A stretch of 64,000 bases of DNA from Artemia franciscana (taxonomy: Eukaryota; Arthropoda; Branchiopoda; Anostraca; Artemiidae), in the NCBI RefSeq assembly GCF_032884065.1, contig NC_088867.1, forward strand, positions 22,512,281 to 22,576,280. Reading direction: 5' to 3'. Below, in pieces: positions 3,128-53,838 of this stretch (position 1 is its first letter; every line of letters starts with the position of its first letter). The notes below the pieces were generated by a model. It was not told the DNA's origin and did no database searches. It saw only the letters and a list, made by a program, of their open reading frames with translations. The translations under genes and the position numbers were made by a program.

Positions 3128-3375
3128 TGCGAAAGTACATATGTGAAACTTTTTTTAATAAACGATATTTCTACAATATACAAAAAGGGGGACATAATTA
3201 GAAATTTATCTCTTCATTTATAGACATAAGGCTGTAGGAGGACTAAACTTCGAGAACACGAAAGTACATTAAAACTTTTTTAAATAAATGGCAATTCTAC
3301 AATAAAAAAGGTCATATTATTAGGAATTTATTTCTTCATTCATAGATGTGAGGCTGTAGGAGAGCTAAAGAGATT
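3128..3375. repeat. 122-bp tandem duplication covering the gene's last codons and 3' UTR
   Basis: Two diverged copies in direct orientation with a period of 122 bp, roughly 3128-3249 and 3250-3375. Shared blocks include 'GAAAGTACAT', 'TTTCTACAAT'/'ATTCTACAAT', 'TTTATCTCTTCATT'/'TTTATTTCTTCATT' and 'GGCTGTAGGAG'. The higher-coordinate copy holds the stop codon of the CLCA gene. The lower copy (3214-3246) preserves the same reading: LVLLQPYVYK-stop against LALLQPHIYE-stop in the gene, both 33 nt. Confidence 0.85.
3327..3332 (-). promoter_or_regulatory. candidate polyadenylation signal AATAAA
   Basis: AATAAA on the minus strand lies three bases after the TGA stop codon (3338-3336). If used, the 3' UTR would be only about 15-35 nt. 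The duplicated downstream copy has GATAAA at the same place. Further AT-rich hexamers lie downstream, so use is uncertain. Confidence 0.35.
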
Positions 3376-3668
3376 AATACAATAATATAAAAGTACGGAT
3401 CAAATTTTCCTCCAGAATTTTCTGGTTCTTCCGTTGGTGTTGGTTTTGTTGTTGTAACTATTGGCCTTAAAGTGTTAGTGACCGTGGTCTGAGGTACAGT
3501 TGTCTCTACTGTGCTAGTTTCTTCCGGGGTCGTCACTGTGGTTGTCGCTTCTGTGGTAGTGGACTGTGTTGTAGTAGTTTCAGGCGTAGTTGTCGTAGAT
3601 GTTGTGGTTTGAAGAACGGTTGGTGTTACCATCGTAGATACTATTGGCGAAGGTTGACCGTAAAATAT
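3336..3668 (-). CDS. CLCA: CLCA exon 16 (last): mucin-like stalk and C-terminal anchor
   Basis: Residues 944-1053 plus TGA. The acceptor is TTTTTACAG at 3669 onward; phase 0 entry. Residues 955-1022 are dominated by Thr with Pro and Glu, in runs such as TTTSTTTTPETTTT, typical of an O-glycosylated stalk. The sequence then changes to ENSGGKFDPY and a hydrophobic stretch YFYIIVLISLALL, ending PHIYE. With only five residues after the hydrophobic run and small residues (NSGG) just before it, a GPI-anchor signal is at least as likely as a transmembrane helix. Vertebrate CLCAs differ in this feature (some anchored, some shed). One small exon between 15 and 16 could have been missed, but phases join without it. 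Confidence 0.88.
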   Translation of the reverse strand: MFYGQPSPIVSTMVTPTVLQTTTSTTTTPETTTTQSTTTEATTTVTTPEETSTVETTVPQTTVTNTLRPIVTTTKPTPTEEPENSGGKFDPYFYIIVLISLALLQPHIYE

Positions 3669-5502: not shown

Positions 5503-5835
5503 TCTACTTGCATTCAGCGTTGACGCCATGACAAAGTAAAACACTTGAGACTCATTTGAATATCCATAAACTGTAAATTCCACCTGCCCAGGCACACCAC
5601 TTCCATTGTGGCCCAAACTGCCACTGACGATATCTTCTGGACGAACTTCTGTTTCCAAAAACGCAATTGATCCATCTGGTCGAATCAGATCCGCTCGGTT
5701 TGTGGAGTATCGAATGGCATAGCCACTTGGAGTCTCAGCACCGTCATATAAGTGTGGTTCAACGAAAGTCATTCGGACAATTGAAGGAGTATCACCTGCT
5801 TCGGCATTCAAAACCAAGACACGAGGCGGCAAAAG
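5503..5835 (-). CDS. CLCA: CLCA exon 15: fibronectin type III-like domain
   Basis: Residues 833-943, phase 0 at both ends; acceptor TCTTACAG, donor GTAAGT. Begins LLPPRVLVLNAEAG, matching the 'PP..I.DL.A' start of the CLCA C-terminal FnIII domain. It continues with VRMTFVEPHLYDGAETPSGY and IRYSTNRADL, equivalent to the family's 'L.WTAPGDD.D.G.A..Y.IR.S'. It ends with VFYFVMASTLNASR. Potential N-glycosylation sites: NGS, NES, NAS. The domain is probably extracellular, next to the membrane-proximal stalk. Confidence 0.93.
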
Positions 5836-11758: not shown

Positions 11759-11977
11759 CTTGATTTGGAAGTACAGCTTTTCCATGGACTTGCTGAACAA
11801 ACTGGATTTGCTGTTGCTGAACGAACTGTACTTCAAGAGACGCAGCAGAAGGTGTATTTGTAAACGAACACTCAGGGGGTTTTGGAGATAATGCTTCAAT
11901 GGAGATATGATGCATTCCCTTCTCAGTGGGACTGAATATATTAGAATATACACCATCGTTGTCTTCAATATCAATAT
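11759..11977 (-). CDS. CLCA: CLCA exon 13: end of beta-sandwich, 'NDGVYS' motif
   Basis: Residues 725 (split Asp) to 797, entry and exit phase 1. The acceptor is TCCTCTTTAG and the donor is the weak GTAGAT. The start reads DIDIEDNDGVYSNIFSPTEK, matching the family 'D...DDGVYSRYFT....G.Y'. It then gives HHISIEALS, followed by a Gln-rich insert QFVQQQQIQFVQQ absent from vertebrate CLCAs. I found this exon because the DGVYS block was missing between exons 12 and 14; phases close exactly when it is inserted. Confidence 0.9.
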
Positions 11978-13724: not shown

Positions 13725-13918
13725 AATTATTAAACTAAAAGATATGTAGATAAAGTTTCGAGAGAAGAACAGTGTGGTTTCAGGAAGTGGAGAGGATGTG
13801 AACAAACTTCTACTTATAGATTATTAATTAAGAAGTGCCTGTATCATAAGACTCTTTTAGTTCTCATTTTTATACGTTATGAACAGACATTTGATTCTGC
13901 TGATAGAAAAGTTTTAGC
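13725..13918 (+). pseudogene. LINE-A reverse transcriptase, 5' piece
   Basis: Across frames reads REEQCGF..WRGCEQT, then FIRYEQTFDSADRKVLA, matching the RT blocks 'REEQ.GFR.GR.C..Q' and 'F.DYE.AFDS.DR..L'. The reading breaks at 13918, where a second LINE begins, and resumes at 15030. The octamer GTTTTAGC occurs at both breakpoints (13911-13918 and 15022-15029). Confidence 0.75.
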
Positions 13919-15029
13919 GAAGGATATTGATGTTTTTAGTGAAGAGAGTGAAGTCAGGGAGATCTCATTATGTTTCGAATGCTGGTACTTCTTCCTCTAT
14001 TTTGCCTATATTGAAAGGTGTCCTAAAGGGCTCTGTGCTTGGGCCATTTTGTTTTTAATTTACATCAATGATCTTCCTGATGGTCTTCATCCCCATGTTC
14101 ACCCTGCTCTTTACCGTATGAGAGACGTACAGGAGCCAATCACCCTGACTTATGGGAACGATATTATACCACAACCTACTCTGGTGAAATTTCTTAGTAT
14201 GTTTCTTGAGTGTTTTCTTTCTTTGAAACCGCATGTAACTCACACCCGTTCCCTTATCCTTAACCAGTCTTCAATGTTGCACCGAGTTAACTCATTTCTT
14301 CCTCCAGATTTTATGCTTTCCCTTTATTATGCTTTTATTTTTCCTTAACTTTCTTATTGCTGTTCTGTCTGGGGTAGTATTAATAAATCTCTTCTCTTCT
14401 TACTTCAAAGAGCCGAAAACATTTCACGGACAGGCTCAGGTAGGTGCTCTACTTCTTTACGTAGTTCTTTTCGCAGATCTCCGGAAGTCCCTCTATTTCT
14501 TTCTGCAAAGGCAGTTTTTCGCTGGGTCTTTCCAGTTTAGTAATTTCTTTCTCTCTCCTTTGTTTTTATTTTTCCTGTTCTCTCTTTTCCTATTGTTTCT
14601 CCTTTTTGGAATTATTCCCCAACTGATCTCTCTCCTATTGTTTTTAAAATTGTTTTCAGGAATTTTCTTAACTTTAAAAATCTTTGTTTATTTTTTTTTC
14701 TGATGTTCTATTGTCAACTTGGTCGTTCCTTTTTCTCTGATTTCTTGGTTTCTATTTGTTTCTATTTATTATAATTACTACCAGATTTTTTTTCATACTG
14801 TATGAACGTTTAGTAGTGTAGTTTGTTTTAGTAGTGTAGTAGTGAAAGTTAAGTTTAGTACTGTAGTGTTTATTCTCCTTCATCTCTGTTTCATATGTAT
14901 TGTTTGATTTAGGGTATTATTTATGGTTCTTTTAGTGCTCTAGTATTGTGTTGTATGGCCATAATAAACAAAGCTTCTTGGGCCGAATAACTAAACGTAA
15001 CTTTTTTACTTTTGTAATAGTGTTTTAGC
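13919..15029 (+). mobile_element. LINE-B: decayed Jockey/CR1-type element nested in LINE-A
   Basis: Forward-strand readings include SNAGTSSSILPI, then KGSVLGP and IYINDLPDGLHPHVHPALY (RT palm, equivalent to 'GVPQGSVLGPLLF.IYINDLP'). Further on are LKPHVTHTRS and MLHRVNSFLPPDFMLSLYYA of the thumb region. The usual YADD lies in a frameshifted stretch. The rest is T-rich 3' sequence with 'GTAGTGTAGT' repeats. About 1.1 kb, 5'-truncated and full of frameshifts. Flanked by GTTTTAGC on both sides, likely a target-site duplication. Confidence 0.75.
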
Positions 15030-16702: not shown

Positions 16703-16888
16703 CATAATAAGTCAGAGGGCCAGACGGACGCTCATCATATAACTTGATGCGTGTCTGGGCTCCGTTCGGTTGTGTAATAGTCGCATACACATCTAGTCCT
16801 CTTACCACATTCAATCCGTTGAAAAAATAGGCGAAAATACCGAAAGGCCGATATGGTGTTGTGCTGACTGCAGCTACGTTATTCACAT
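16703..16888 (-). CDS. CLCA: CLCA exon 12: beta-sandwich region
   Basis: Residues 663 (split Asp) to 724, entry and exit phase 1; acceptor CCTTTTACAG, donor GTAATA. Encodes PFGIFAYFFNGLNVVRGLDV followed by ATITQPNGAQTRIKLYDERP. This matches the CLCA segment 'P..VYA.I..G..PI..A.VTA.I....G....L.L.DNG'. It lies between the exon ending CELWTSD and the exon starting DIEDNDGVYS, as in the family order. Confidence 0.92.
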
Positions 16889-20876: not shown

Positions 20877-22160
20877 GATGCCAGACATATATTCATATAT
20901 GAAAAGGTGATAGGATCCAGGCTAACTGATTACGTTGAAAATAATACAATTCTTATAAATACTCAATTTGGTTTTAGAAAAAAAATGTCCACAGAAATGG
21001 CAACCATTAAACTTGTTGACTGGGTAAATACGTCGTTTGAAGCGGGTCTGATTCCAGCTGCCTTATTCCTGGATTTGAAAAAGGCTTTTGATACGATTGA
21101 CCATAAACAGTTATTACTTGAGCTGGAAAAAATCGGTGCTACCGGAAAGAGTTTGTCTTGGTTTGAATCTTATTTAAGTGACCGAAAGCAGGTTGTGGTG
21201 AATGGGTGTTTTACTTCTGAAGCTAGTACGATAACTTGCGGAGTACCCCAGGGCTCTATACTAGGTCCTCTTTTATTTTTAATATTTATTGATCGGATTA
21301 AGTATTATTTGTCAGAGGCTGGTATAATCCTTTTTGCAGACGATACTCTTTTACTTGTAGCTGCTCCATCAGTTGATCTACTTTTTGATAAAATGATAAA
21401 GGCAATGACCGAGTTTATTGAGTGGGCAAATTTCAATCTTTTGACATTAAATTATAATAAAACTAACTACATTCTATTTTCTCGGATATCTAGTATTGAA
21501 ACTAATTTAGAATTAATAATAAACGGAAATCAAATAAAAAGAGTAAAGGTAACAAAGTATTTAGGTTTTATGATTGATGAAAATCTATCATGGAAAACAC
21601 ATTCAAATATTATAGCTTCAAAGTTGTCCAGATCTCTGGGTGTGCTTCGCCGAGTTAAAAACCTAGTGTCCTATAAAATTCTTCGGTTACTTTATTTTGC
21701 TATTTTTTACCCGTATATTTGCTATGGTTGCTCTTTATGGGCTAGTAATTTTGTATCATGTTATAAAAAAATCCAAAAAATCCAAAATAAAGCCGTTAAA
21801 CTTTTATCACCTAAAACTTTATTTACTCATAATATTAATGAACTTTATACTAAGAATCAACTTTTTGATATTTCAAAAACAAGAGACTACCAAGTTAGTA
21901 TTTTCACATATAAATTTATTAATAATATACTTCCCTCTTCTTTCGAAAATTTTTTCTCCATTAATAGTGATCTTCATAGCCACAATACACGAGGGGCATC
22001 AAATCTGGTACACCCATTTAGAAATACGGCTAGAGCTTCTTTCGTGATTAGAAATTTTGCCCCCTCTGTGTGGGATATTATTCCAATTGAAATAAGAAAT
22101 TCGAGTCATTTGGCTTCCTTCAAAGCTGTTGTTAAGAGATTCTTCCTTGCAAAAGCATAG
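20877..22160 (+). CDS. Non-LTR retrotransposon reverse transcriptase, 5'-truncated but open
   Basis: One uninterrupted frame of 428 codons from the preceding in-frame stop; 417 codons from the first usable start at 20907. RT blocks in order: TQFGFRKKMSTEMA, ALFLDLKKAFDTIDHKQLL, CGVPQGSILGPLLFLIFI, ILFADDTLL (the catalytic FADD), WANFNLLTLNYNKTNYILF, KYLGFMIDENLSWKTH, then the thumb region LLYFAIFYPYICYGCSLWAS. It ends SFKAVVKRFFLAKA before TAG. The N-terminal endonuclease and ORF1 are missing, as usual for 5'-truncated insertions. It lies in the sense orientation of the window and antisense to CLCA. The open frame implies a recent insertion. Likely CR1/Jockey superfamily; clade not decided. 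Confidence 0.88.
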   Translation, partial: DARHIFIYEKVIGSRLTDYVENNTILINTQFGFRKKMSTEMATIKLVDWVNTSFEAGLIPAALFLDLKKAFDTIDHKQLLLELEKIGATGKSLSWFESYLSDRKQVVVNGCFTSEASTITCGVPQGSILGPLLFLIFIDRIKYYLSEAGIILFADDTLLLVAAPSVDLLFDKMIKAMTEFIEWANFNLLTLNYNKTNYILFSRISSIETNLELIINGNQIKRVKVTKYLGFMIDENLSWKTHSNIIASKLSRSLGVLRRVKNLVSYKILRLLYFAIFYPYICYGCSLWASNFVSCYKKIQKIQNKAVKLLSPKTLFTHNINELYTKNQLFDISKTRDYQVSIFTYKFINNILPSSFENFFSINSDLHSHNTRGASNLVHPFRNTARASFVIRNFAPSVWDIIPIEIRNSSHLASFKAVVKRFFLAKA

Positions 22161-23275: not shown

Positions 23276-23497
23276 AGTTATATTCAAATAAAATCTGTCC
23301 CATTGATTTAAGTTCCAGGATGTGCCATCTACTTTTGAAACTAACATTGGTGACTCTGCTGGGGTGACTTCAATCTCTAAAGAGGATCCGGCTGGAGCAT
23401 AAAATTCAAAGTCCACATACGGCGTATCACTTATAAAAGTCTGAAATGTTGATTGCTCTAATCCTCCTGGAGGAATTAAAAATTCTTCATGACCAAC
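23276..23497 (-). CDS. CLCA: CLCA exon 10: start of beta-sandwich
   Basis: Residues 531-604, phase 0 at both ends; acceptor TATAATTTCAG, donor GTATGT. Encodes FLIPPGGLEQSTFQTFISDT, then VDFEFYAPAGSSLEIEVTPA. These align with the CLCA stretch '..G.V.VDSTVG.DT.F.I.W....P...L.DPSG'. The exon ends FYLNIT, a sequon whose Asn is completed by the next exon's Lys (NIT-K). A conserved position for the start of the domain after VWA. Confidence 0.92.
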
Positions 23498-26253: not shown

Positions 26254-26403
26254 CTCAATTATGCGACTCAGCTCAAATGTTCGGTCCGTCACAATCCTTA
26301 AAACGTCATTAAGTAGGCTATCAAGCTCTGTGTTGAAGCTGTTTGAACTAGAGCCAACATATGCTTTGCCCATGGACCTACTGGCTAGGTTTGCAAAGTT
26401 CGC
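26254..26403 (-). CDS. CLCA: CLCA exon 9: end of VWA domain
   Basis: Residues 481-530, phase 0 both sides; acceptor ATTTTCAG, donor GTGAGT. Encodes ANFANLASRSMGKAYVGSSS, then DSLLNDVLRIVT. It matches the CLCA block 'ELEELS..TGG....S......GLIDAF..L', the last helix of the VWA domain. Exon boundaries are clean and the 50-codon length is in frame. Confidence 0.93.
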
Positions 26404-27357: not shown

Positions 27358-27630
27358 CTGTTCTACACCAGAAAAACCATACTCAATCGAGAACAACTTT
27401 ACTTGTCGAGATGTTAGAATGTCTATAATAGGACCTTCTGGTAGTTCTGCTTTAACAGCATCATTGCTGGAAGTAAATTTTATCAAAAGGACAATAGAAC
27501 CTTGTTGCCACAGCCTGGATGTTAAAAATACAGCAGCATCTCCGATGGCTTTATCAAGAAGAATACCACCCAGTTTGTTCTGTTCCATGCTGTTAATGGC
27601 CGTCCCAAATTGACCAGACACAGCAGACAC
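27358..27630 (-). CDS. CLCA: CLCA exon 8: VWA core, metal-site loops degenerate
   Basis: Residues 390-480, phase 0 both sides; acceptor CTCCTTATAG, donor GTTAGT. Encodes FGTAINSMEQNKLGGILLDK, then WQQGSIVLLIKFTSSNDAVK and VKLFSIEYG. These align with CLCA 'GGT.I..GL..AF', 'GSEIVLLTDGED' and 'I.T.ALG'. The MIDAS Thr (GGT) is Ile412, and the Asp of the TDG loop is Lys440, so metal coordination is unlikely. The Rossmann-like strand/helix pattern is preserved. Confidence 0.93.
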
Positions 27631-36853: not shown

Positions 36854-37087
36854 ATTACTTGCTGCATTTTCTGAAGAAGTGTCGACCAATATATATACAA
36901 CCGGTGTCCGGAACGCGGGCTTAACAACACTGAACGTTGGATCTCCAGGGAATGAAAGTATCGGCGATCTTCCTCTATAGTCTGGATGGTTCTTTATCAT
37001 TTGCCAGGCGCTAAGTTCATTGCAAAAATAGTTATGACGATTTTTCGATGTTTTGTCATGAGTTTCATCGTCGCAAAAATGGTTGAC
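36854..37087 (-). CDS. CLCA: CLCA exon 6: Cys segment and start of VWA domain
   Basis: Residues 261-338, phase 0 both sides; acceptor TATTTAG, donor GTGAGT. Encodes VNHFCDDETHDKTSKNRHNY FCNELSAW, matching the CLCA 'V.FC....HN..APN.QN..C....W.VI' segment. Then PTFSVVKPAFRTPVVYILVD TSSE, the first VWA strand. The MIDAS motif DxSxS reads D329-T-S331-S-E333: the last Ser is Glu. With the losses in exon 8 the metal site is broken. Confidence 0.93.
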
Positions 37088-38233: not shown

Positions 38234-38360
38234 ACTGTCAAGGTATGACAAATACAGAAGTGAAGTATTTGCCGATTGTATTTCATCAGGAAGAAAAGAG
38301 CAATAGTCGATGAAACTGAGGGAGCAACCTTCATTAAAAATTGGATTTCCGCTTAGGTCA
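38234..38360 (-). CDS. CLCA: CLCA exon 5: Cys-rich end of the N-terminal domain
   Basis: Residues 218 (split Tyr) to 260; entry phase 2, exit phase 0; acceptor CATTTTTTAG, donor GTAAGT. Encodes FNEGCSLSFIDYCSFLPDEI then ANTSLLYLSYLDS. It matches CLCA 'YEKGCEF........ASIMF.Q..DSV', the segment linking the protease-like domain to VWA. Cys222-type positions are kept, and there is one NTS sequon. Confidence 0.92.
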
Positions 38361-39782: not shown

Positions 39783-39972
39783 TAATCATAGTATCCAAAT
39801 TTTCCTGTCATGGGTTTATCAGAGCACCCTGTAGCTTTCCATTCAGCAGTATTATCTGAGGTCGCTTCAATTGTAGGAAACCGTGAAAACGATTGGGTCC
39901 CATCCCTTACAATGCCATACTCTTCGAAAAGACCCCATCTATAGATAGACCACTCTTGCACGACAACCTTAC
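39783..39972 (-). CDS. CLCA: CLCA exon 4: zinc-protease motif region, motif degenerate
   Basis: Residues 155 (split Ser) to 217; entry phase 1, exit phase 2; acceptor CTATTTAG, donor GTAAGT. Encodes VVVQEWSIYRWGLFEEYG, equivalent to the CLCA signature 'FVHEWAHLRWGVFDEYN'. The zinc-binding HExxH is Q160-E161-W-S-I164, so both His ligands are missing. The third-ligand Asp (HExxHxxxGxxD) is Glu171. The surrounding RWG.F.EY frame is conserved, so this is not a misaligned exon. CLCA proteins normally self-cleave with this site; this one probably cannot. Confidence 0.94.
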
Positions 39973-40264: not shown

Positions 40265-40416
40265 TTGGATTCTTCTGCTCTGTCCATCTGGAGATGTACT
40301 CTGGACTTAGGAAGATATACTGCCCCTGACTTCCACAGTAACTAACCTTCTGTGTGAATGGCGCAATATAGTCTTTGAATTCAAAAACTCGGATATCAGA
40401 AGAAGAAAAGCTTTCA
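40265..40416 (-). CDS. CLCA: CLCA exon 3: N-terminal domain
   Basis: Residues 104 (split Asp) to 154 plus one base; entry phase 2, exit phase 1; donor GTGAGT. Two AGs are near the acceptor. Only the second (TTTTGATTCTAG) keeps frame; the first would give an immediate stop. Encodes SDIRVFEFKDYIAPFTQKVS then YCGSQGQYIFLSPEYISRW, matching CLCA 'ADV.V......D.PYT.Q...CGE.GE.IHLTPDFI'. The conserved CG turn is present. Confidence 0.9.
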
Positions 40417-41002
40417 CTAGAATCAAAATATCCTGAATTATATTAATGTTTCAATTATTATTTTTATTCAGTCAATCTTCTTAATTCAAACTTCAAAGTT
40501 TACTCAGAACAAAGAGGCAGAAAATATGCATCGAATCAAAAAATTATTCGTCTCTTCAAGCCCAAAAAGATTTCAGGGATCTAGGAATAATATAGTTTTA
40601 AAAACACTGGTCTTATCCAAAGCCAAAATATTTTGACACCTATAAAGACTAAATCAAGCCCCCAAGCCCGCAAAATAAAAAAGACCGAGCATTGGCTATG
40701 TCTTTTGGTGATAGATCATGATCATTTTTCTTTGTGTTCGATGCAAAAACAGATAAAATGTTACTTCGTTTTCTTAAAAGTTTAGCTGCTCAAATTTTTG
40801 AGTTTTTTTGTCAGTGCTGGCAGCTCAGTGAAAATCACAAACATTTATTTAATACAAAGTTAAGGGCATATTTATTAAGGTGTATTTTTTTTTAATTTAA
40901 TTACTAATATTAGCAGCCAAGTTTCTAGTGAAGCAGGACTTAGTATTCCGCGGGGATGAAGAGAGCCATAACTCGAATCAGAACAAAATTTTTTTCGAGC
41001 TA
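40417..41002. other. CLCA intron 2, first part
   Basis: AT-rich DNA, no recognisable element. Confidence 0.6.
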
Positions 41003-42503: not shown

Positions 42504-42640
42504 TCAATGGCATCAGAATAGTCATAGTCAGTGCCAGGAGCTCCTTGCCAGGTGCTTGGGATTAATATCTTCACATCTTTGAAATAAAAGTACCTGTCAG
42601 AAGCGTCGTATAGCGACCGTGAGGCACCAGAAATCAATTC
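42504..42640 (-). CDS. CLCA: CLCA exon 2: N-terminal domain
   Basis: Residues 59-103 plus two bases; entry phase 0, exit phase 2; acceptor CTATCTTTAG, donor GTAAGT. Encodes ELISGASRSLYDASDRYFYF then KDVKILIPSTW, a strong match to CLCA 'M...ASPYLFEATGKRFYFK NVSILIPETW'. The conserved RxFYFK and ILIP.TW blocks make this one of the clearest family signatures in the window. Confidence 0.95.
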
Positions 42641-43560: not shown

Positions 43561-46500
43561 ATAGTGTGATTTTTGTTAAGATTCTATGACTTTTAAGGCG
43601 TGTTTCTCCCTATTTTCTAAAATAAGGCAAATTTTCTCAGGCTCGTAACTTTTGATGGGTAAGACTCAACTTGATGAAGCTTATATATTTAAAATCAGCA
43701 TTAAAATGCAACTCTTTTGGTGCAACTATTGGTATCAAAATTCCGTTTTTTAGAGTTTCGGTTACTATTGAGCCGGGTCGCTCCTTACTACAGTTAGTTA
43801 TCACGAACTGTTAGATTATACAAAAAAGCAGGTTTTTTCAACGGAAAATAAGGATTGAATTAAAACTTAAAATAAGAGAAAATTATTACGATATGGGGAG
43901 GATACCCCCTCCATAATACCTCGCTCTTCACGCTAACATTATGCTCAAAAAGCTATCTTATTCCAATTCAACGAACCCTGTGATTCATTTTTTGTTCGCA
44001 AAGAATTGGGATGCAAAATCATACTTTACCGTAAAACAGCAAATTATTTAAGAGGGTGCATCCCCCACAACCCGCCACTGAAGTTTTCTTTAGAGAAAAT
44101 TCGCCTCCCGAAAAATATCTGTTTACTTCTCAATAACAAATGTTAAGTGTAAGCGTTAGGCAATAGGCTTTTCTCTTTTGAATTCAATGAAAAAAAAACA
44201 AGCTTTTTAACTGAAAGTAAGGAACAACACTAAAACTTAAAACGAACAGAAACTATTCTGTATAAGAAAGGTGATGTTCCCTCCTCAATGCTTCGCTCTT
44301 GACACTAAAGTTTGACTCTTTGTCACCCTCTACTTTTTAAAACAAAAAAAACTTTTGCTTAAAGAGTTAGGCGTTGAGGAGGGGACAACCCCTTTTCATA
44401 CACAGAAATATTTCTGTTTCAAGTTTTAATGTTGCTCCTTACTTTCAGTTAATTTTTTTTTTTGTATTTAATTTCTAAACTTTTTTGAACTAATACAGGC
44501 TCGAATTTGGCTCACCGTACATGAAAAACTAAAACCAAATTTGCAGTTAATTTTGGAAGATTTATTACTATTATAAACTTTCCCCCCTCCTCATTGCCTT
44601 ACTTTTTACGCTAAAACTGTTGTCACTTTAAAAAAGTTCCCTATTCTAATTAAAAAAGCCCCCGTTTTTTAATAAACGCTCTTAAAAAATTGGGACAAAA
44701 GGTCAAACTTTAGCGTGAAGAGCAAGGTATTAAAGACACGGTTCATATATGGAGGGAGAAACCTTCCCTCACATGGAAATACCCTTCGGCGAAATTTCAT
44801 CCGACGTAAACCTTCCCCCCGTCAATTCCCTAAAGACAGTTCCATCCTCGCTGAAAATCCCCCTTCATGTAAAATTACTTGCGGACAACTCATCCTTAAA
44901 AATTCTCCTTAGCATTCTTTCATTTGAATAAGACTTTAATCTCTAATCGGTTTCTCGATCACTCCAGAAATAACCCCTTCCGTGGAAATTATTTCTCAGT
45001 AATCAAAACACGCGGAAAATAGCCCCTAGGGCCTAGATAATTCCATCGGAACATCTCCACATGAAAATTGGCAGAATCCGTAATACTTCCGGGCCGACAC
45101 TGATGTTTTCAATAATTTGGGATTTGTTATTAAAACATTTAATATTCAATTTTACTACTACTATTAACAACAACTCATCACAGCACCAAACTGCCTGAGG
45201 CCTTTGACAAATTTGGGCTATACATTTGCACATTAGAGAGGGGGGAGGGTAAAGTATAGCAAGTCTGCATGCTAAAGGTGTTAGGTACAATTATTCTGCA
45301 TATTATGAAGTAAGAATATTTTTCTGACTTCAAACTGTCCAAATACTTTAACACCCTCCCCCTCCCTATGCGCAAATATATAGCCCAAATCGTATATTTC
45401 CCATCTATTCTGTCACTTGTCTTTGTCTTGCCTCGCGCTAAGCTGAAAGAAACTAACGAAAACACGGGTTTGTTCTCGAGTTTTACACAGCGGAAACTTG
45501 AGCGAGTGGGGGATAATACACAAGTAACAAAATTCCTTCCCCCTGCGAAAAAAAACTCATATAGAATTCTCAAATTTGGAAAGGCTTATTTACCACGGGG
45601 GGAGGGGGTGCTTCCTGGGGGGTATTTTCAGCGGAGGTACTTTACTCGGGGGATATTTCCCGCGGGGGAGGGGGGGGGAACGCTTAGAACCATGAGGAGG
45701 ATATTCCCTCCAAAATAATTTGCGCTTCATGCTAAAGTTATTTAGAATTTTCAAAAAGCTTCTTATTCTAATTTAATGAACCTTGTGTTTCACTTGTTGT
45801 TCGTAAATTATTGGGATACAAAGTTATACACTAGCGTAAAGAGCGAAGTATTTGAGAGGGGTCATCCCCTACATCCCACCACTGAATATTCCCCCAGAGA
45901 AAATTCACCTTCCCGAAAAATGTCTGTTTACTTCCCAATAAAAATGCTATTCGTAAGCAAAAGGTAATAGGCTTTTCTTTTTTAACTAAAGAAAAAATTT
46001 TAGTTAAAAAAATTTAACTAAATTTTTTTTTAACTGAAAGTAAGGAGCAACACTAAAATTTAAAACGAACAGAAATTATTCCGTATATGAAAGGGGTTGT
46101 TTTCTCCCCAATGCCTTGCTCTTTACACTAAAGTTTGACTCTTTGTCATAATCTACTTTTCACAACAATGAAAACTTTAGCGTAGAGAGTGAGGCATTGA
46201 GGAGGGAACAGCCCCTTTTATATACGGAATAATATCTGTTCGTTTTAAGTTTTAATGCTGCTCCTTACTTTCAGTAAAAAAAAATGTTTTTTAATTAAAT
46301 TTCTGGACGTTTTTCAACTAATTCAGGTTCAAATTTGGCTCACTGTACACGAAAAATTAAAAGAAATTGCATATTAATTCTGGGAGATTTATTCCGTATA
46401 TGAAAGGTTGCCCCCTCCTTATTACCTTGTTCTTTACGTTAAATCTGTTAGCAATTTAAAAAAAAGGCTTCCTATTCTAATTAAATGGCCTTCGTGTTTC

Positions 46501-49030: not shown

Positions 49031-52000
49031 AGAGTTCATGGTAACGAACTGTAAGTAAGGAGCAACTTGGCCCTGTAGCGGTTTAGTCTCATAATTTGGG
49101 GTGGCAAGATATACCAAGGTATATAATTTAATGAAGGAATTTAATGTCAGAAAAACTAGGGGGCAGTTCCCCTTCCCCTACCCCCGTCTAGAGCTGCGAT
49201 TAACTCGGCCTAATATTAACTGAAACTATAAAACACGGTATTTTAATAACAATTGATACATCAAAAGAATTGGATTTTTATTCCGATTCCAAATATGTAA
49301 AACTCATTAAGCTTAATGTTTTCCATCGAAAGCTAGGAGTATGAGGGAATTTACATTATTTTTGAGAAAGAGGAAAACGCCTCCAAAAACCAACAAGTCT
49401 TAACGTAAACAACGCCATCAGATTCAGCATATCAGAGAGCCTTGCTATAAAGGTTTCAAGCTCCAATATACAAATATATGGAATTTTGTTTTTTTTTGTC
49501 TTTTTTTTTGCCAGAAGAACGATCAAGGATGCGCCATAAATCTTTGGTAACCTTTTATTTGGGGTCTTCAATTGCCTTCAAATGGCTCAAAGAAACTCAC
49601 GGACTTTTTGAATCACCCTACCATTATTTCATGACTATTTACCTTAGTTCTGCCCGAAGATGGAGGGATGAATGATAGATTATCTATCAACAAGTGAAAT
49701 GACATCATTTTCATACATTTCTGAAAAGGGCCTAGGCCAGCTTTGCCTCTCACTCTCAGTATTCTTATTTTGCCTCTCACTATTTTTTTGCAGTTAGTAA
49801 TGGCTCTTAGCTTTTTTATCACAGTCCAACAACTTGATATTAATTCAACATCAATTTATCACAGGGTGATCGTATCGAACTAATGGCTCCATAAGATCAG
49901 GAGAGGGCTCATTCGAACAGAAATAAAAAAGTTCTAGCGCACTTGTTAAGTGAACAAAATAATTGGAGGGTAACTAGCCCCCTCACACACCACTCTTTTC
50001 CTCGGAGTCATACAATGAAAATTGTGAGATAGCCATGTTCAGCGTAGTTGAAAGGTAAAACAGTCATGCCTCAGGGGATGCCATGATCCCCCATAACCCT
50101 TGGGAAAGGGGCTGTAAGTTATGAAATTTGCCTATTGTTTACATGTAATATTTGATATTGCGAAGTAAACAGACATTTTTCGAGGAGTGGGAATTTCCTG
50201 GGGGACTTCCACGGGGATAATTTTACGTGGGGAGGGAAGCTTCTAGGGAAAAGCTTCTTAGGGAAATTTCACATGGGGGACTTTGCCAGAATTCCTATGC
50301 AAAATTCTTTTCATTTATCTTGCTTTCTCTTTGCCGATTCAATTTTACATGCGGAGGTGTTCCGGAGAAATTGTGCTGGGGAAATTTTCAAAGGGGTTGG
50401 AATTGTCTGGGATATTTTTCTGTGGGGGGATTTCCCGCAGGATATATTTTCCATATGATAATTTTCCCGTGGACAATTCTCTATGGCAGAATTTTCTACA
50501 GGAAAAATTCTTCACGGGGAAAATTTTCTGTGGGATAAACTTCCCTGAGGGGATTTCCAGGGGTAATTTTCCGCAAAGGAGGGACTTCCGGTATGATTTG
50601 AAAAACCGACTAGAAATCGATGAAAAAGAAGTCGTTTTTTTCATGCGACAGTAGGCTAAGGGGAATTTTCCAAAGGGAATTGTCCACCAGATATTATCTA
50701 GGGGGAATATTCAGCAAGGATGAAATTGTCGGCGGGAGGAACTCTCCCTGGAGGAGTTTTTGTGGAGGGGATATTCCAAAGAGGGGAGGTAGATTTCCCG
50801 GCAATATCTGAAAAACGTTCAGACAGTAATCAGAATAAACAAGTATTTTTTTCAACCGAAAGTAAGGAGCAATATCAAACAGTTCGTGGTAACGAACTGT
50901 AGTAAGGAGCAACCCGGCTCAATAGTAACCACAACTCTAAAAAATGGAATTTTGATACCAATAGCTACATCAAAAGAATCACATTCCAATGCTGATTTTA
51001 AATATATAAGTTTCATCAAGTTTAGTCTTATCCATCAAAAGTTACGAGCCTGAGAAAATTTGCCTTATTTTAGAAAATAGGGGGAAACACCCCCTAAAAG
51101 TCACAGAATCTTAACGATAATCACATCATCAGAAACAGCGTATCAGAGAACCCTATTGTAGAAGTTTCAAGCTCCTATCTACCAAAATGTGGGATTTCGT
51201 ATTTTTTGCCAGAAGGCAGATAACGGATGCGTGTTTATTTGTTTTTTTTCCAGGGGTGATCGTCTCGACCCAGTGGTCCTAGAATCTTGCAAGAAGGCTC
51301 ATTCTAACGGAAATGAAAAGTTCTAGTGCCCTTTTTAAGTGACCAAAAAAATTGGAGGACACCTAGGCCCCCTCCCAAGCTAATTGTTTTCCCAAAGTCA
51401 ACGGATCAAAATTCTGAGATAGCCATTTTATTCAGCGTAGTCGAAAAACCTTATAACTATGTCTTTGGGGACGACTTACTCCCCCACAGTCCCCATGGGA
51501 GGGGATACAAGTTACAAACTTTGACCAGTGCTTACATATAGTAATGCTTATTGGGAAGTGTACAGACGTTTTCAGGGGTATTTTTTTTGGTTTGGGAGGG
51601 AGAGTTGAGGTGGGGGAGGGGCTGGAAGGATCTTTCCATGGAAAAAATTCTCATGGGGGAAGAGACTTTCAATGAAGGGGGCGCAGGATTTTTTAGTATT
51701 ATTTAAAAAACAATGAAAAATAAATACGAAAAGTTTTTTTCTACTGAAAGTGAGGAGCAGCATTAAAACTTAAAACGAGCAGAAATTATTGCGCATACGA
51801 GGGGTTTACCTCCTCGTGATACCTCGCTCTTTACGCTAAAGTATTTTTAGTAATTTCAAATATTTATTCTACGGCCTTTGTGATTCAAGGGTCATTCTTA
51901 AGGAATTAGGACAGAATTTAAGCTTTAGTGTAAATAATGAGGGATCGACGAGGGGTGAACTCCCTCATATACGCATTAAAAACATACGAGTATAGAAGTT

Positions 52001-52962: not shown

Positions 52963-53027
<65 letters not shown>

Positions 53028-53093
53028 ACTTATGCTTCCACACTAGCAAAGTTATTACCAGGGTCTATGATATTCCAAATTTACCGTTTCCGA

Positions 53094-53181
<88 letters not shown>

Positions 53182-53257
53182 TTTTTTTACTTATGCTTCC
53201 ACACTAGCAAAGTTATTACCAGGGTCTATGATATTCCAAATTTACCGTTTCCGAGGA
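52963..53257. repeat. Two (AT)n arrays with an exact 73-bp duplicated spacer
   Basis: (AT)n at 52963-53024 and 53097-53179. The 73 bp at 53024-53096 (starting TTTTACTTATGCTTCCACAC, ending GTTTCCGAGGA) are repeated without a mismatch at 53185-53257, offset 161. This is a very recent duplication or a local assembly artefact caused by the AT tract. Confidence 0.93.
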
Positions 53258-53664: not shown

Positions 53665-53838
53665 TTTTATTTTTTTGATAAATTCCTGTTCAGCCGCAAC
53701 ATCTGGGGGTAAGAAGCTATCACTTATAGCTACAACCAAATTTTCATACCCACCGGGTCCTGTAGGGGGTATGGTGACTGCACTGCATATAGACAATAAA
53801 GGAAGTAAAAGGATAGAGGATAACTTAAACAAGGACAT
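53665..53838 (-). CDS. CLCA: CLCA exon 1: start codon, signal peptide
   Basis: Residues 1-58, exit phase 0; donor GTAAGT. Starts MSLFKLSSILLLPLLS, a hydrophobic signal peptide with a likely cleavage after SICSA (residue 20). Then GGYENLVVAISDSFLPPDV and EQEFIKKIK follow, matching the CLCA mature start 'NGYE.VVVAI...VPED..LI..IK'. This ATG is the first in frame with a typical signal peptide. Upstream on the same strand lie CTATAAG (about 50 nt away) and CCTCTTTAG, so either a TATA-like element or an upstream non-coding exon is possible. Confidence 0.93.

Follow-up and report, generated by a model that had tools for sequence, protein, structure and literature searches.

Background

In the vertebrate CLCAs that have been studied, self-cleavage and a metal-dependent contact of the VWA domain link the protein to channels. 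Either of the substitutions H155A and E156Q stops cleavage of human CLCA4, whose effect on TMEM16B requires the VWA metal site; more generally CLCA1 and CLCA4 need this site for TMEM16A/B (PMC11231702). Avian CLCA1 E164Q is likewise uncleaved, whereas the equivalent EQ mutant of murine CLCA4a is merely impaired (PMC9007345). Cleavage of CLCA2 is intermolecular: the E165Q mutant is uncleaved when alone but still co-precipitates with the wild type, which on co-expression cuts 1.5 to 6% of it. Store-operated calcium entry was 0.12 with CLCA2 E165Q, compared to 0.25 with the vector and 0.44 with the wild type (PMC10669480). CLCA1 assembles into large complexes, and its uncleaved form can be secreted and can occur as a dimer (PMC6851300).

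CLCAs with a substituted active site have been surveyed previously. Lenart et al. (2013) found HExxH in 72% of CLCA_N members and concluded that the proper site was most likely lost five times independently, in specific lineages (PMC3650047). In CLCA_N, H1 is frequently changed to Arg and H5 to Lys. Inactive members were expected to act as decoys or accessory proteins, with reference to the ADAMs, while the roles of inactive zincins were described as not well understood (PMC3650047). Dead ADAM proteins, as named in that survey, similarly carry a zincin domain with a broken motif and are thought to be decoys or accessory proteins; they belong to another family, however, and the analogy is functional only. 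A 2022 paper counts a single published study of the motif distribution, presumably the 2013 survey (PMC9007345). Among the matches listed by our literature searches, judged by title or abstract, no other article dealt with arthropod CLCA active sites; a search for CLCA pseudoproteases found none, and the match for CLCA MIDAS in invertebrates concerns calcium channels. The word MIDAS is absent from the main text of the survey (PMC3650047).

Results and discussion

A long CLCA-family gene on the minus strand

The window (the whole 64,000-nucleotide stretch of Artemia franciscana DNA analysed here) contains a CLCA-family gene that is read, from its sequence, as one long multi-exon gene running on the minus strand from approximately 53.8 kb down to approximately 3.3 kb; its introns reach 11 kb. 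When open stretches were examined for splice sites and phase, 13 candidate exons were obtained across 50 kb, all of them open with usable splice sites (Table 1). Their GC content lies between 0.378 and 0.459 in each exon, compared to 0.350 for the whole window.

Table 1. Candidate exons of the CLCA-family gene, in order of transcription (window positions)
Feature	Position	Strand	Observations
Exon 1	53665..53838	-	Start Met, start of CLCA domain, 58 aa, phase 0; donor ATAAAA|gtaagtg; N terminus signal-peptide-like by eye
Exon 2, CLCA domain	42504..42640	-	ORF alone matches PF08434 (E = 2.1e-8, 34.4 bits); acceptor and donor present
Exon 3, CLCA domain, CGSQGQYIFLSPEYI	40265..40416	-	ORF alone matches PF08434 (E = 2.2e-4, 21.2 bits, below the 25.6-bit cut-off)
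Exon 4, QEWSI exon	39783..39972	-	ORF alone matches PF08434 (E = 2.5e-4, 21 bits, below the 25.6-bit cut-off)
Exon 5, later cysteine-bearing part of CLCA domain	38234..38360	-	Phase fits exons 4 and 6; within the PF08434 match
Exon 6, end of CLCA domain and start of VWA	36854..37087	-	ORF alone matches PF08434 (E = 1.5e-6); DTSSE at 36883-36869
Exon 8 (probable), second half of VWA	27358..27630	-	VWA profile match together with exon 9
Exon 9 (probable last VWA exon)	26254..26403	-	Phase 0-0, open frame; same VWA profile match as exon 8
Probable exon after VWA, beta-rich region	23276..23497	-	Open frame and splice sites; suggested by order and phase; without family match
Probable exon, beta-rich region	16703..16888	-	Acceptor cttgccttttacag, donor gtaatag, phase fits next exon; own ORF without family match
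Probable exon with DIEDNDGVYSNIF, 3' end uncertain	11759..11977	-	Acceptor present; sub-threshold match to NCBIfam choice_anch_X
Probable fibronectin-III-like exon (LLPPRV...)	5503..5835	-	Suggested by open frame and splice sites
Probable last exon	3336..3668	-	Thr/Pro-rich stalk, C-terminal hydrophobic segment, stop; open frame and acceptor

The first six exons are consecutive and phase-compatible, and joined they encode 338 residues with no stop or frameshift. For exon 3 the acceptor at 40416 was preferred to that at 40432 by phase; exon 4 is bounded by an acceptor tatttag and a donor gtaagta whose phases fit the neighbouring exons. The joined protein matches the Pfam CLCA profile PF08434 over residues 29-303 (E = 8.4e-51, 173.4 bits), covering profile positions 6-265 of 266, and NCBIfam TIGR00868 over residues 11-331 (E = 4.3e-49, 167.1 bits). 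Taken singly, the open frames of exons 2, 3, 4 and 6 match PF08434 with E = 2.1e-8 to 2.5e-4, exons 3 and 4 falling below the curated cut-off when alone. The exon 1 frame has no Pfam match of its own; in the joined protein the PF08434 match begins at residue 29. A PDB search with the joined 338 residues returned no CLCA. Judged by these profile matches, the gene encodes a CLCA-family protein, and its N-terminal zincin domain is well conserved apart from the zinc motif treated below; the CLCA identity proposed by the sequence-only reading is borne out by the joined six-exon match.

The part of the gene downstream of the VWA domain is assigned tentatively by order, open frames and splice sites. 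The match to choice_anch_X was obtained with three joined queries (E = 1.2e-4 to 2.5e-5) and stays below the 25-bit cut-off. The fibronectin-III-like exon is not matched by Pfam fn3, even at E up to 1. The C-terminal hydrophobic segment of the last exon may serve as a membrane or lipid anchor. At least three exons were not located: one for the middle of the VWA domain (36.8-27.6 kb), one in the 23.3-16.9 kb gap and one in the 11.8-5.8 kb gap. Splice-compatible open frames of the 36.8-27.6 kb interval, scored by the human CLCA1 VWA domain, splice quality and strand signature, included no convincing candidate, and the other two gaps yielded nothing convincing. In CLCAs the self-cleavage site lies around residue 700; the assigned exons contain no ALY-type site, and loose matches were seen only in unassigned open frames or other frames.

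The protein shares with CLCA1, CLCA2 and CLCA4 a near-complete CLCA domain followed by the start of a VWA domain. Its beta-rich region, fibronectin-III-like exon and C-terminal hydrophobic tail would be further points of resemblance, judged by order and phase only. Unlike them it has no HExxH, and its VWA metal site has probably been lost.

Both zinc-ligand histidines are replaced

Exon 4 encodes KVVV-QEWSI-YRWGLFEEY on the minus strand. The zinc motif HExxHxxxGxxD is absent and the sequence reads QEWSIYRWGLFE. QEWSI occupies residues 160-164 (39958-39944), and Glu171 (39925-39923) stands at the position of the third ligand. These are the residue numbers of the sequence-only reading, which the six-exon join reproduces. 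The window has a single match to the pattern EW...RWG.F.EY, against no match in 100 shuffles. HExxH was not found in any of the six frames of all 64,000 bases. The claimed loss of both zinc-ligand histidines is upheld, as read from genomic DNA. An alternative exon with HExxH would need to lie outside the window or to have its motif split by an intron. When exons 2-6 and 8 were compared with the window by tblastn, no second copy appeared; the next best hit had E = 0.054 across 19 residues. The codons at the two ligand positions are CAA (Gln) and ATC (Ile). Since His to Gln takes at least one base change and His to Ile two, at least three changes are spread over two codons and a single base-call error cannot explain both losses.

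On its sequence the protein is therefore a substituted-site CLCA, its zinc ligands lost within an otherwise conserved CLCA domain, just as in the CLCAs of the 2013 survey (PMC3650047). The premise that CLCAs carry HExxHxxxGxxD describes what is typical and not what is universal, in view of the proportion of CLCA_N members with HExxH given by that survey. Because such substituted sites have already been surveyed, the Artemia protein is not special as a class; it is of a known kind, to which it adds a clear further example with H1 = Gln and H5 = Ile, in contrast to the frequent Arg and Lys (PMC3650047).

Motif positions in prokaryotic sequences

The constraint on the motif was examined with a DNA pattern that fixes, among others, Glu-Trp, Gly and Asp/Glu-Glu-Tyr/Phe/Ser and leaves both histidine positions free. 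A first, stricter pattern had no match in viral contigs or prokaryotic genome contigs. The histidine-free pattern identified 49 loci in prokaryotic genome contigs. Plasmids gave no match. The 36 loci with His-Glu were kept and the other 13 dropped. Ten of the dropped loci were scanned with Pfam (L017, L023 and L034, with open frames of 18-36 aa, were left out) and none is a CLCA: seven belong to unrelated families (pyruvate:ferredoxin oxidoreductases, galactokinases, a cellulase or a Cas9) and three are without family. Among the kept loci 15 of 36 reach PF08434 at 1e-3. In the alignment, four members reach Peptidase_M64 and one Reprolysin_2, so that some of these sequences may be CLCA_X or zincins of other kinds.

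The second histidine is present in all 36 kept loci. This is a free count, whereas that of the first histidine is not, because the 36 were selected by His-Glu. The third ligand position holds Asp in 34 and Glu in 2. Two contigs of Sumerlaeota/Sumerlaeia provide the Glu examples, both with HEWAH followed by GLYEEY (L009, 3501-3539, minus strand; L031, 5735-5773, plus strand), which indicates that an Asp-to-Glu change at the third ligand position can accompany an intact HExxH. Glu171, although present as claimed, is therefore a mild change and it is the two lost histidines that matter. The comparison is prokaryotic only and says nothing on arthropod CLCAs.

The VWA domain and its metal site

At the end of exon 6 the protein reads VVYILVDTSSENAASN where human CLCA1 (PDB 6PYO) has IVCLVLDKSGSMATGN. 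The DxSxS motif thus reads DTSSE, with Glu in place of its last Ser. TIGR00868 supports the register of exon 6 up to residue 332, one residue short of this Glu. For the remainder of the domain a VWA profile was built from 10 prokaryotic segments picked up by the human CLCA1 VWA domain at E 1e-3, the human sequence being the query and not a row. Exons 8 and 9 align with the second half of this profile (12.2 bits, E = 0.0049) and score above all 500 of 500 shuffles (best 6.3), while the exon 6 tail alone obtains -1.3 bits. In this alignment the MIDAS Thr is replaced by Ile (27564-27562) and the MIDAS Asp by Phe, or by Lys if shifted by one residue (27480-27475). Exon 8 had also been considered as the first half of the VWA domain; this assignment was dropped because the profile alignment places it in the second half.

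Several other comparisons speak against this reading. The open frame of exon 8 has no Pfam family match, with a weak unrelated hit only, and exons 8-10 joined match no Pfam or NCBIfam family at E up to 1 and nothing convincing in PDB. Pairwise comparison with the human CLCA1 VWA domain is no better than with shuffles, 193 of 2000 of which reach the score of the exon 6 tail, 705 of 2000 that of exons 8-9 and 248 of 2000 that of the joined segments. Adding the downstream exons raises the TIGR00868 score from 167.1 bits (exons 1-6) to 169.4 bits, far below the model cut-off of 900.85. As these exons hardly contribute to the family match and the pairwise scores do not exceed those of shuffles, it is the weak 12.2-bit alignment, with a VWA exon missing, that indicates that the VWA metal site has probably been lost (DTSSE; Thr to Ile; Asp to Phe or Lys).

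The sequence-only reading had suggested that the protein may regulate channels. This idea is weakened by the probable loss of the metal site: since CLCA1 and CLCA4 need that site for TMEM16A/B (PMC11231702), regulation of their type would be unlikely if it is lost.

Possible role of the protein and alternative explanations

The same reading described a pseudoprotease that would stay uncleaved. The first half of this description holds insofar as the motif needed for self-cleavage in the studied CLCAs has lost both histidines. Permanent non-cleavage does not follow from this, because wild-type CLCA2 cuts part of the protease-dead form in trans (PMC10669480) and the murine CLCA4a mutant is just impaired (PMC9007345). 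We favour the view that the gene encodes a CLCA with a dead protease site, its VWA metal site probably lost, which would be a secreted or surface-held binding partner of active CLCA paralogues; we would give this view an even chance of being correct. The protein would either leave the cell or remain at its surface, attached through the C-terminal stalk and hydrophobic tail. Unable to cut itself, it would work as a binding partner and might form complexes with active CLCA paralogues, by analogy with those formed by CLCA2 precursors and CLCA1 subunits. The active paralogues might then either cut it in trans or be damped by it, an effect that the protease-dead CLCA2 mutant may have. For the Artemia protein all of this is conjectural, from its expression and anchoring to complex formation, active partners and function, and the damping role in particular is borrowed from the human CLCA2 mutant, where trans cleavage amounts to a few per cent. 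A narrower proposal is that this CLCA is doubly dead, with neither the protease site nor the VWA metal site, and has been retained as a natural dominant-negative partner that sets the activity of active paralogues in trans; this appears unlikely. If true, the protein would correspond in nature to the laboratory CLCA2 E165Q mutant, and a natural member without both sites would help to separate the scaffold role of CLCAs from their protease role. As a single genomic case it is a pointer and not a result.

The loss could instead be old and common to the CLCAs of the lineage, the protein being an ordinary structural or adhesive extracellular protein without an active partner. We regard this as a real possibility, if a rather doubtful one. 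The approximately five losses in specific lineages and the roughly one quarter of CLCA_N members without HExxH (PMC3650047) are in line with it, and the probable degradation of the VWA metal site would be consistent with a long metal-free history; against it stands the good conservation of the CLCA domain (173.4 bits). If the gene were decaying or had recently died, the histidine losses would reflect early pseudogenisation without function; this would account for two metal sites that look broken, for the at least three exons not located and for a clear retrotransposon in an intron (one of the eight open frames scanned). We nevertheless consider it quite unlikely: the 13 candidate exons are open over 50 kb with usable splice sites, each is richer in GC than the window, the strong domain match contains no stop or frameshift, and the exons not located may merely be too diverged to be recognised.

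Two further explanations concern the motif itself. The site might still bind metal through Gln160, Glu161 and Glu171 and keep weak activity, which seems very improbable. The protein keeps the catalytic Glu as well as a carboxylate at the third ligand position, where Glu also occurs in 2 of the 36 prokaryotic HExxH sequences; however, the second ligand position is occupied by Ile, which cannot bind zinc. The murine CLCA4a protein with a mutated motif, which is just impaired (PMC9007345), speaks for residual activity, whereas in human CLCA4 the single substitution H155A suffices to stop cleavage (PMC11231702). An artefact of assembly or exon choice, the true transcript using another exon with HExxH, is hardly credible. 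The reading comes from genomic DNA only, but exon 4 fits the CLCA profile in the region of the motif, HExxH is absent from every frame of the window, tblastn gave no second copy of exons 2-6 or 8, and the two codons differ from those of histidine by at least three bases in total.

Other features of the window

The window contains no Rfam family at the gathering threshold and no tRNA. An open frame of 426 aa on the plus strand (20880-22160) matches reverse transcriptase (PF00078, E = 2.2e-26) and represents a retrotransposon located in an intron of the modelled CLCA gene. Four other stretches, at 31633-30766, 29454-29200 and 61862-61572 on the minus strand and 13734-14345 on the plus strand, resemble broken retroelements by eye; at 1e-3 Pfam gave no match for any of them. 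Two long AT dinucleotide runs lie in a 161-base unit repeated in 1.8 copies with 97% matches (52963-53257). Open frames at 45590-45772 and 50156-50918 encode the repetitive peptides GKYPPSKVPPLKIPP and GKLLGKSFLGKFHMGD and perhaps belong to one dispersed repeat family.
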